Shown piece after piece: positions 3,061-38,756 of a stretch of DNA of 64,000 bases. Under the pieces are notes generated by a model. The model was not told where the DNA came from. It ran no database searches and saw only the letters and a list, made by a program, of their open reading frames with translations. Source of the stretch: Nocardioides aromaticivorans (GTDB lineage: Bacteria > Actinomycetota > Actinomycetes > Propionibacteriales > Nocardioidaceae); the NCBI RefSeq assembly GCF_013408525.1, contig NZ_JACBZM010000001.1:1302001-1366000 (forward strand), given 5' to 3'. Both the position numbers and the translations under genes were made by a program. Every line of letters starts with the position of its first letter. Position 1 is the first letter of the stretch.

Positions 3061-3209
3061 GAGTTGCCAGTTTGGCGCGTTGACTTGCCGATATGGCGGC
3101 TTGAGTTGCCAGTTCTGTCGACCCACGCAGGCAGAACCGGCAACTCGGCGGACCAGACCGGCAAGTCGACCGGCCAGACCGGCAACTCGACCGGCCAGAC
3201 CGGCAAGTC
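3061..3209. repeat. family A element, copy 1: inverted array with 21-bp period
   Basis: Three 21-base units beginning GA(G/C)TTGCC start at 3061, 3082 and 3103. Four units ending in the reverse complement, GGCAA(C/G)TC, end at 3146, 3167, 3188 and 3209. The halves face each other, so the array could fold into a long imperfect hairpin. It fills the gap between the 3' end of the M20 dipeptidase gene and the promoter of the FAD protein gene. Copy 2 of the same family is at 24005-24270. Confidence 0.9.
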
Positions 3210-22934: not shown

Positions 22935-23027
22935 GCCCCTCCCATGTCCGGATCGAGGACGATCGTTGCACCCCCTCTTCATGTGTATCTAGACTTGGTT
23001 ACATCACTTAGCCCCGTGGAGGCGCAG

Positions 23028-23990
23028 ATGACCCGGCAACCCCGCCCCGACTTCCTCCTCGTCGGCGCGCCCAAGGCCGGCACGAGCGCGCTCCACCTCG
23101 CCCTCGCCGCCCACCCCGACGTCTTCGTGACGACGCCCAAGGAACCGAAGTTCTGGCTCTGCGAGGGCGCGCCGCCCCCGCACTGGGGCGGGCCCGGCGA
23201 CCGCCACTCGCAGCAGGAGTGGGTCTGGCACGAGGAGGCCTACGCCGACCTCTTCCGCCCGGCGCCACCGGGCAGCGTCCGGGGCGAGTCGACTCCCTTC
23301 TACCTCTGGCACCGCGGCGCCCAGCGGCGGATTGCGGATGCCCTCCCGGACGTCAGGCTCGTGGCCGTCGTACGGGACCCGATCGACCGGGCCTACAGCA
23401 ACTGGATGCACCTCTGGTCCGACGGCCTCGAGCCGGAGGCGGACTTCGAGACCGCGTTCGCCCGGCAGGACGAGCGGATCGCCGCCGGCTTCGCGCCCTT
23501 CTGGCGCTACCGCGACCTGGGCCTGTACGGCGAGCAGCTGCGCGACCTCTTCAAGCTCGTCGACCCCGCGCGGGTGCTGATCGTCCGCTACCGCGACATC
23601 GTCGACCACCCGGTCGAGACCGTGGACCGCACCTGCCGCTTCCTCGGCATCCGCGAGGGGCAGGTCACCGGCATCCCGCGCGACAACTCCCGGCCCTATG
23701 TCGCCCCCGGCTGGCGCCCTCGCGTCTTCGGGCCGGCGGTCCGGGCCGGCGCGTGGGCCGGGCAGTTCGCGCCGCCGGAGGTGTGGCGGCGGCTCAGCGT
23801 GCCGGTCGTGGCGCGCCTGCAGACCGCCGACGCGCACCGCCCGTCACTGACGCCGGCCCAACGCGAGCGCCTGCTGCCCGCCTTCGCCCGCGACATCGAG
23901 CTGCTCTCGGACCTGACCGGCGAGGACTTCTCCGACTGGCTCTCGACCCGCGACCGGGGCTCCTTCGCCCAGCGCGCCGCCGCCCGCTGA
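23028..23990 (+). CDS. PAPS-dependent sulfotransferase
   Basis: The 320-residue cytosolic enzyme transfers sulfate from PAPS. The 5'-phosphosulfate loop is VGAPKAGTSAL (residues 12-22) and the 3'-phosphate site is VVRDPIDRAYSNWMHLWSDG (about residues 114-133), with RYRDIVDHP later. GGAGG precedes the ATG. It resembles bacterial heparan-sulfotransferase-like proteins; the acceptor could be a glycan or lipid. It is followed directly by a 21-bp repeat array and is convergent with a glycosidase-like gene. Confidence 0.88.
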   Translation: MTRQPRPDFLLVGAPKAGTSALHLALAAHPDVFVTTPKEPKFWLCEGAPPPHWGGPGDRHSQQEWVWHEEAYADLFRPAPPGSVRGESTPFYLWHRGAQRRIADALPDVRLVAVVRDPIDRAYSNWMHLWSDGLEPEADFETAFARQDERIAAGFAPFWRYRDLGLYGEQLRDLFKLVDPARVLIVRYRDIVDHPVETVDRTCRFLGIREGQVTGIPRDNSRPYVAPGWRPRVFGPAVRAGAWAGQFAPPEVWRRLSVPVVARLQTADAHRPSLTPAQRERLLPAFARDIELLSDLTGEDFSDWLSTRDRGSFAQRAAAR

Positions 23991-24004
23991 CCCACCCCCG
24001 CGCC

Positions 24005-24270
24005 GAGTTGGCCGTTTGGCCCGCCGAGTTGGCCGTTTGGCCCGCCGAGTTGGCCGTTTGGCCCGCCGAGTTGGCGATTTCGTCCGCCGAGTTGGCGGTT
24101 TCGCGCGCCGAGTTGGCGGTTTCGTCCGCCGAGTTGGCGGTTTCTACGGACCGAACGGCCAACTCGATCGACCGAACGGCCAACTCGATCGACCGAACGG
24201 CCAACTCGATCGACCGAACGGCCAACTCGACCGACCGAACGGCCAAGTCGACCGACCGAACGGCCAAGTC
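24005..24270. repeat. family A element, copy 2: inverted array with 21-bp period
   Basis: Seven left units beginning GAGTTGGC start at 24005, 24026, 24047, 24068, 24089, 24110 and 24131. Six right units ending GGCCAA(C/G)TC end at 24165, 24186, 24207, 24228, 24249 and 24270. Spacing is exactly 21 bases throughout. The two halves are reverse complements at the core, so the whole can fold on itself. It fills the convergent gap between the sulfotransferase and glycosidase-like genes. Confidence 0.95.
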
Positions 24271-24281
24271 GGCAGGCTGGG

Positions 24282-25175
24282 TCAGCGCACGACGGTGACG
24301 AGGTCGTGGGCACCGTCCGGCCGGGCAGCCTCGACGTAGAAGCGCACCCGCCCGTCCGGGAGCGGTACGGCGGAGGCGTAGCGCCAGGCGCCGTCACTGT
24401 GCGGCGACGAGATCGGCGGGCCGTCCACGGCGACGTAGCGGGCGCCGTCCCAGGTGGCCACGCCCGTGGTCTCGAACCAGTTCGAGGCGGCGTCCGGCCG
24501 GCCGTCGTACAGGATCGTGCGGGGGCGTCCGTCGACGTCGGGCAGGACAGCGGTGGCGCGGGCGCCGCGGGCGTCCCACTCCCCCGGCCGGCCGGCGAGC
24601 ACCTCACCGTGGTCGGTCCAGGAGAGGCCGTCGGGGCTGCGCAGCAGGCGGCTGGTCATCCGGTCCTCGTGGCCGGTGTCGGTGAGCGGGTGACAGCACA
24701 GGAGCATCTCCCAGCCGTCGGCGCCGTGGGTGACCACGGGGTCCTTGACGGCGACGGTGTCGTCGCCCGGGAGCACCAGGACCCGCTCCCCACCGGGCAG
24801 CTCCTCGGGGGTCGCGGCGGTGAGGCTGTCGACCCACCAGTGCTTGGAGCCGGGCGTCGCGCAGGACAGGTAGAGCCGCCAGCCGACGCCGGGGACCGGC
24901 ACCAGGACGGGTCGCTCGAAGGACTCGCAGCCGAACGCGTCGCGGTGGACCTCCGCGACCGGCGTGAACCGCTCCCCGTCGTCCGAGCGCGCGACGACAA
25001 CGCTGACCCCGCGGCCCTCGTCGAGCGGTCGGCGGACCCGGTAGGTGAGCCAGAAGGTGCCGTCGACCAGCACCGCGCTGGCCGCACCGGCCCAGTTGCC
25101 GGCGCCCGGCGCCGGGGCGGGTACGACGACCCGCGCGTCGTCGTACGTGGGCACGGTGAGGGCAGCCAGGCTCAT
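24282..25175 (-). CDS. glycosyl hydrolase-like five-bladed propeller protein
   Basis: The 297-residue protein starts MSLAALTVPTYDDARVVVPA and has repeated propeller motifs (VLVDGTFWLTYRVRRP, VVVARSDDGERFTPVAEV, SRLLRSPDGLSWTDHGEVL), as in GH43/GH32/GH130-like clans. No signal peptide is seen, so it is cytosolic. The fold is recognisable but the family and substrate are not certain. The ATG at 25175 lies six bases from TATCAT; the longer frame upstream crosses this promoter. The 3' end lies 11 bases from the repeat array. Confidence 0.65.
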   Translation of the reverse strand: MSLAALTVPTYDDARVVVPAPAPGAGNWAGAASAVLVDGTFWLTYRVRRPLDEGRGVSVVVARSDDGERFTPVAEVHRDAFGCESFERPVLVPVPGVGWRLYLSCATPGSKHWWVDSLTAATPEELPGGERVLVLPGDDTVAVKDPVVTHGADGWEMLLCCHPLTDTGHEDRMTSRLLRSPDGLSWTDHGEVLAGRPGEWDARGARATAVLPDVDGRPRTILYDGRPDAASNWFETTGVATWDGARYVAVDGPPISSPHSDGAWRYASAVPLPDGRVRFYVEAARPDGAHDLVTVVR

Positions 25176-38642: not shown

Positions 38643-38756
38643 GAGTTTCACCGGTCGGCCGGTGAAACTCACGGTTGGACGACGAAGTTTCATCGTCCAG
38701 GCGTGAGTTTTGTCGTCCAAGGTCGGGAGTTTCACCGGTCGGCCGGTGAAACTCCC
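38643..38756. repeat. family B element, copy 1: palindrome / inverted repeat / palindrome
   Basis: A 12-bp stem GAGTTTCACCGG around TCGG (38643-38670) is followed by an inverted repeat TTGGACGAC...GTCGTCCAA (38675-38720). Then comes a 14-bp stem GGGAGTTTCACCGG around TCGG (38725-38756). It fills the convergent gap between the ketosteroid isomerase and carboxyltransferase genes, and the last palindrome contains the carboxyltransferase stop codon (38732-38734). Confidence 0.92.

Follow-up and report, generated by a model that had tools for sequence, protein, structure and literature searches.

Inward-facing 21-bp repeat arrays dispersed in the genome of Nocardioides aromaticivorans and their link to an AbiEi-DUF559 nuclease gene

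In systems of repetitive extragenic palindromes (REPs) and REP-associated tyrosine transposases (RAYTs, TnpA-REP), the enzyme gene is flanked by inverted copies of a genome-dispersed repeat, and the repeats have been proposed to be non-autonomous elements (PMC2817692). Paired inverted sites are also described for AbiEi and Rv2827c: both are reported to bind inverted sites of 23 bp whose gaps measure 3 and 13 bp, equal to 26 and 36 bp centre to centre (PMC7319586). Here a 64,000-nucleotide stretch of the N. aromaticivorans genome (assembly GCF_013408525.1, contig NZ_JACBZM010000001.1, positions 1,302,001 to 1,366,000), called the window below, was analyzed for the array of 21-bp units at window positions 24005-24270. 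With a probability of about 0.7, this array is a gene-less (solo) copy from a dispersed family of repeats that belongs to an AbiEi-DUF559/Vsr-like nuclease, in a REP/RAYT-like system with an unrelated enzyme.

The array and its dispersed copies

The array consists of two opposed halves around a short centre:

24005..24138, + strand: left half of the solo array, seven units beginning GAGTTGGC, step 21 bp
24139..24157, no strand: centre of the array, 27 bp from the start of the last left 8-mer to the start of the first right 8-mer
24158..24270, - strand: right half of the array, six units GAGTTGGC/GACTTGGC on the minus strand, step 21 bp

The left units GAGTTGGC begin at 24005, 24026, 24047, 24068, 24089, 24110, and 24131, and the right units, read as GCCAACTC/GCCAAGTC, at 24158, 24179, 24200, 24221, 24242, and 24263. 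Every gap within either half is 21 bp, the centre gap is 27, and Tandem Repeats Finder (TRF) gave a score of 218 for each half. These coordinates bore out the initial annotation, which had described seven units facing six opposed units at an exact 21-bp period. The halves can also form a hairpin, as it had stated: RNA folds of the two strands had z = -10.5 and -10.9 against 100 shuffles. Such a G+C-rich hairpin of complementary halves is present for this array and absent for one-directional and composite arrays (described below). Units were more alike within the left (0.85) and right (0.91) halves than between them (0.71), which agrees with the initial annotation for this locus but did not hold as a general rule (9 of 13 two-sided arrays of this genome, P = 0.13). 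Several reading frames are open across the array because 21 is a multiple of 3; as had been noted, no gene fits them, and gene calling with a codon-score script placed none there, so a coding array was rejected for this locus. Rfam gave no match at gathering score across the window.

The pattern GASTTGSC-N13-GASTTGSC was searched in the source assembly (G000, 5.26 Mb in 2 contigs, called the own genome below). It gave 92 matches (unit pairs) in 21 clusters, while the reversed control gave none, and the core named in the initial annotation gave 22 matches at 21-bp spacing. A single occurrence in the genome, which the initial annotation had set against a general element, was thus the opposite of the outcome. 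The exact period inside the arrays is partly a selection effect, the array loci having been picked through a 21-bp pattern. Many of the clusters consist of two inward-facing halves and some of one half, and the window contains another such array:

3061..3209, no strand: second array of the same family, >>><<<<, centre distance 36

A phage or plasmid origin was rejected, with no match among 50,697 phage records and four among 72,556 plasmid records.

The unit sequence was not universal. The own pattern had any match in 17 of 57 other genomes, with at most three matches in each, and several congeners carried arrays of the same 21/22-bp period with a different unit sequence, namely GAGTTGGGGTTTGTGACCGTC in G112, GAGTTGGGCCCCATCCGCGTC in G075, GAGTCGGCGCTTGTTGACCGC in G065, GAGTCGGGACTTCTGACGGTC in G059, GAGTCGTCACTTTCTCCCGTT in G034, and GAGTCGAGACTTCTGACGGTT in G018. 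A universal unit was therefore rejected, the unit varying by species. A survey of 98 genomes of the genus with one degenerate pattern, which detects only part of these dialects, found a minority above the reversed control and the remainder near control level; matches versus control were, for example, 118/10 in the own genome, 207/8 in G065, 119/4 in G075, 65/12 in G112, 59/13 in G018, and 47/9 in G059. Arrays were also present in Amycolatopsis, Crossiella, Prauserella, and Saccharomonospora. A phylum-wide search, with at most five candidates scored per genome, was positive for at least 13 of 396 genomes, the own genome included. The unit pointed in a single direction in 15 of the 16 arrays of G075. 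The sequence of the unit correlated weakly with protein similarity (Mantel r 0.21, P = 0.004, 31 loci), which suggests that units evolve fast. Separately, about 20 copies of a 26-bp palindrome, GAGTCGGCGCACATGTGCGCCGACTC, were noted in G076 (L115-L139), and this palindrome is possibly a collapsed two-unit array.

Linkage of the arrays to a nuclease gene

Some opposed arrays lay about 1 kb apart with one gene between them, whose product has about 300 residues. In the own genome the linked gene is at G000:C1:4695234-4696151, beyond the window, and the inverted arrays on its two sides are built from the same 21-bp unit as the array at 24005-24270. The nuclease was found inside 4 of 15 examined loci with two separated arrays (L057, L082, L172, and L185). 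The other 11 enclose other genes or none, so the idea that every bracketed gene is cargo was rejected; at one separated-array locus, L182, the halves face outward.

The linked protein matched DUF559 (PF04480) in Pfam, with MTES_1575 and AbiEi near or below the cut-off, and was also matched by AbiEi profiles from a defence library. A structure modelled from an alignment of the query with 69 of the 120 listed homologues predicted an AbiEi-like winged helix at residues 1-190 and a C-terminal domain resembling Vsr and EDxHD homing endonucleases; a single-sequence prediction, with a predicted local distance difference test (pLDDT) value of 38.6, was set aside. The acidic/His nuclease residues were conserved in close homologues, and nuclease residues were mostly kept. 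Among 7998 scored proteins, 2984 were homologues at E 1e-10, and those with a name other than hypothetical protein were called DUF559 or "type IV toxin-antitoxin AbiEi domain". A homologue at E 1e-20 was present in 84 of the 98 genomes of the genus, too common to discriminate, and genome-level co-occurrence was rejected as a test of the link.

The link was examined locus by locus. Eight array-bearing genomes (own, G112, G034, G014, G059, G075, G018, and G065) contained 21 homologues, and in seven of these genomes the best-ranked one was bracketed by inverted arrays of the host dialect, at a step of 22 bp in G014. In G065 a lower-ranked homologue was bracketed by the host dialect and the best one by a 31-bp unit (L220). 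Further paralogues had units of 22 bp (own L222, G075 L221 and L228, G112 L223) or 32 bp (G014 L226). A third, distant own paralogue (L230, G000:C1:4902443-4903021) had no visible arrays and lacked the conserved His. By eye, a motif like CCTGTGGA/TCCACAGG recurred between array and gene at the nuclease loci L213-L233.

An automatic strict test, in which the two flanks had to share an equal period (17-34 allowed) and an inverted unit at least 70% alike, was passed by 28 of 44 homologue loci of the genus and by 2 of 196 other genes. The control set held 199 genes of similar length, of which five passed; three of the five were the nuclease gene itself and were removed. This control is conservative, because most control genes come from array-selected loci. 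Strong flanks had periods of 21, 22, 31, and 32 only, despite the wider range allowed, and these equal two or three helical turns; because of that range, the selection by a 21-bp pattern does not affect this test. Of the 16 failing loci, five were distant homologues without clear arrays, and several others had a one-sided array or a weaker match.

If arrays belong to nucleases, the second own nuclease, which is encoded at 3131707-3132570 and bracketed by a different 22-bp unit, is predicted to have dispersed arrays of its own. The pattern of its flanks gave 24 matches in the own genome and none in the control; four were the flanks themselves and 20 lay at ten other places. Six of these ten were inspected, four between convergent and two between tandem genes, and all adjoined a gene 3' end.

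Gene ends, turnover of positions and helical phasing

The positions of 105 arrays in stretches from five genomes were compared with the genes around them. The arrays lay between convergent genes in 44 cases, between tandem genes in 45 (two of the own loci, L053 and L056, may in fact be convergent if a gene was missed), within a called gene in 15, and between divergent genes in one. The 230 other gene pairs of the same loci were 28 convergent, 128 tandem, and 74 divergent. Divergent pairs thus took 1 of 90 intergenic arrays versus 74 of 230 background pairs, and Fisher P was about 1e-11 both for this deficit and for the convergent excess. The median distance from an array to a gene 3' end was 7 bp (89 arrays). 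At L040:3890-4240, ordinary terminator-like hairpins were seen by eye on either side of an array.

The array at 24005-24270 follows the same placement. Its surroundings are as follows:

23016..23990, + strand: sulfotransferase-family gene (PF13469, PF00685), from the gene call and Pfam
24282..25175, - strand: convergent gene from the gene call, no Pfam match, used as marker for the orthologous slot in relatives
23985..23994, no strand: left arm CGCTGACCCA of a 10-bp inverted repeat directly outside the array, holding the stop codon of the + gene, from the sequence
24278..24287, no strand: right arm TGGGTCAGCG of the same repeat directly outside the array, holding the stop codon of the - gene, from the sequence

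Of the 29 relatives listed, at least 26 have kept this gene pair, and in none of the 29 was a pair of the own unit found within 700 bp of the slot. The distance from the C-terminal motif of the sulfotransferase to the stop of the opposite gene was at most 60 bp in 20 of 26 relatives versus 318 bp here. By eye, other elements occupied the slot in some relatives: an inverted element of another type in G063, the relative with the highest protein identity (91%), an array of another unit, GAGCCTGTAGAGACGTCCGCC, at 21-bp steps in G070 (L324), and short hairpins in G088 and G118. The type of inverted element in the G063 slot also occurs in the window at 38643-38754, where palindromes GAGTTTCACCGG...CCGGTGAAACTC stand twice. 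The array in the G070 slot hints that gene-end repeats with a CCTGTCGA core may be the same kind of element as the arrays described here.

Few array positions were common to species among the loci compared. The own genome, G014, and G034 each carry an array, in their respective dialects, at the orthologous position within an AAA/VWA (Mg-chelatase-like) gene (L041, L087, and L088); the own genome and G014 share a further position at a fliK-like gene, and G018 and G036 share one. The nuclease cassette adjoined moaA in 8 of 44 loci, with differing units. The few shared solo positions and this recurrent place suggest that the cassette is rather stable while solo arrays change.

The distances between facing units were mostly 26, 27, 36, and 37, or these plus whole units. 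At a period of 10.5 bp the phase concentration (R) was 0.95 in 16 same-family arrays, each with exact facing units that have an exact neighbour, and 0.93 in nine composite arrays. A looser scan of 35 arrays gave 0.83, and 10.5 ranked top among the periods tried. The composites came from G018, where 9 of 19 loci, lying among L195-L212, join a half of the 21-bp family to a facing half of a 22-bp family, inward and with the helical phase kept; this count leaves out L205, whose facing units are separated by 267 bp, and L207 and L210, where the two families point the same way. By eye, the 22-bp family was also seen at the second nuclease of G018 (L225), with an array on the left and a single unit on the right. 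The phase was the same in same-family (4.9) and composite (5.05) arrays, and the centre sequences looked unrelated. The phasing near 10.5 bp, which extends to the composites, favours a DNA-bound protein over an RNA hairpin. The spacing agrees with the 26 and 36 bp of AbiEi and Rv2827c, which is suggestive.

Ten of the 16 arrays had a distance of exactly 36 and nine of the ten came from the own genome, which makes the values partly non-independent (collapsed by genome, eight values gave R 0.94). Distances of 25, 30, 55, and 60 bp, and of 18 and 39 in G065, are exceptions to the phasing. The similarity of nested partners slightly exceeded that of the remaining left-right pairs (P = 0.048), which favours pairing of the halves.

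Possible mechanisms and comparison with known systems

From these data we infer that the nuclease binds the unit, nicks or cuts, and copies the arrays. One protein molecule would dock per unit through its AbiEi part, on one face of the DNA, as 21-22 bp make two turns and 31-32 bp three. Inward-facing halves would bring nuclease domains together; repair or replication of the nicked or cut DNA could then copy and expand the arrays, which would be non-autonomous copies parked at gene ends, where harm is least. The initial annotation had offered four options for the array, and the protein-binding array and the REP-like element both gained from the dispersed copies, the linked nuclease-like gene, the 3'-end location and the phasing. 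One-directional arrays, composites and slots of at most 60 bp speak against a hairpin terminator as the main function.

Together, the array family and its nuclease point to a DNA element, selfish or regulatory, of a kind not described before. A broader proposal is tentative, and we put it at somewhat below even odds: a new class of actinobacterial self-copying or transposable element. Each genome would encode at least one kind of AbiEi-Vsr nuclease, which docks on arrays whose halves face inward in phase with the helix and places copies of them at the 3' ends of genes. The dialects of the species would reflect co-evolution of the arrays with their nucleases, and the G018 composites would serve a hetero-pair of nucleases as docking sites.

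A domesticated regulator is unlikely but the best of the alternatives. An AbiEi-type protein would use the arrays as operators or roadblocks, its nuclease domain being secondary, and the arrays would insulate convergent genes. AbiEi relatives are described as DNA-binding autoregulators (PMC7319586), arrays stand at gene ends and the nuclease locus is frequently at a fixed place, but the mostly conserved nuclease residues, the slot without the array in relatives, the few shared positions among the loci compared and the turnover of the unit between species argue against it.

We consider it quite unlikely that the array is a bidirectional terminator or RNA-processing hairpin, with transcripts of both genes folding into a long stem and being stopped or trimmed there. 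Strong folds on both strands, the location at gene 3' ends and the greater similarity of nested partners agree with such a role. However, it does not fit the one-directional G075 arrays or composite halves from different families, RNA loops do not need a spacing quantised at about 10.5 bp, the L040 array already stands between two ordinary hairpins, and the link to the nuclease is left unexplained. The slot itself needs no such hairpin, because the genes are at most 60 bp apart in 20 of 26 relatives. A terminator effect may be a by-product of the arrays.

Self-marking or defence, in which the arrays mark the chromosome and titrate the nuclease or direct it against DNA without arrays, is improbable. 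The predicted nuclease fold akin to Vsr and homing endonucleases, the matching AbiEi defence profiles and the species-specific arrays are consistent with it, but a restriction-like mark would have to be far denser than about 20 clusters per genome. That each array arose separately from a chance palindrome by neutral slippage, with no dedicated enzyme, is highly improbable: tandem units slip readily and some halves hold near-identical copies, but one unit recurs at 21 clusters with no control match, one gene family is bracketed, and the centres are phased despite unrelated sequences.

If the solo-array reading with its linked nuclease is correct, a very large uncharacterised protein family gains a function to look for, and dispersed gene-end repeats of actinobacteria gain a candidate enzyme. 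Since an array accompanies many of these nucleases, the genome sequence itself supplies a candidate specificity that is open to direct testing, and in the dialects nature would have kept a record of how protein and DNA co-evolved. The claim of novelty rests on searches of open-access literature, including PMC7319586, PMC2817692, PMC12907096, and PMC3943268, in which no paper joining DUF559/AbiEi nucleases to dispersed repeats was found; most subscription papers and bioRxiv lie outside this coverage.

Among known systems, AbiEi antitoxins of type IV toxin-antitoxin systems resemble the linked protein in the predicted fold of residues 1-190 and in paired inverted sites at the two centre distances given above (PMC7319586), but here the domain is fused to a nuclease and the sites are dispersed through the genome. 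A DUF1814 toxin gene was not found beside it: a single open reading frame (ORF) lies between the own arrays, with moaA downstream outside the array, and small upstream ORFs were not scanned. The EDxHD homing endonuclease I-Bth0305I and Vsr share the predicted fold of the C-terminal domain and the acidic/His residues conserved in close homologues, whereas the present nuclease was not seen in an intron or intein and is tied to repeat arrays, not to one insertion site. Unlike the ends of Tn7-like transposons, the cassette here is one gene, and the solo arrays are without cargo. REP repeats lie outside genes and avoid divergent gene pairs, and the arrays described here do likewise, yet 15 of 105 lie within called genes. 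The closest likeness is to REP/RAYT in the flanking of the nuclease gene by two inverted copies of a dispersed repeat, seen in 28 of 44 loci by the strict test. RAYT, in contrast, is an IS200/IS605-like tyrosine transposase, whereas here an AbiEi winged helix-turn-helix is joined to a Vsr/EDxHD-like nuclease (DUF559/MTES_1575/AbiEi in Pfam), and single palindromes are replaced by inward-facing, helix-phased arrays of tandem 21/22- or 31/32-bp units.
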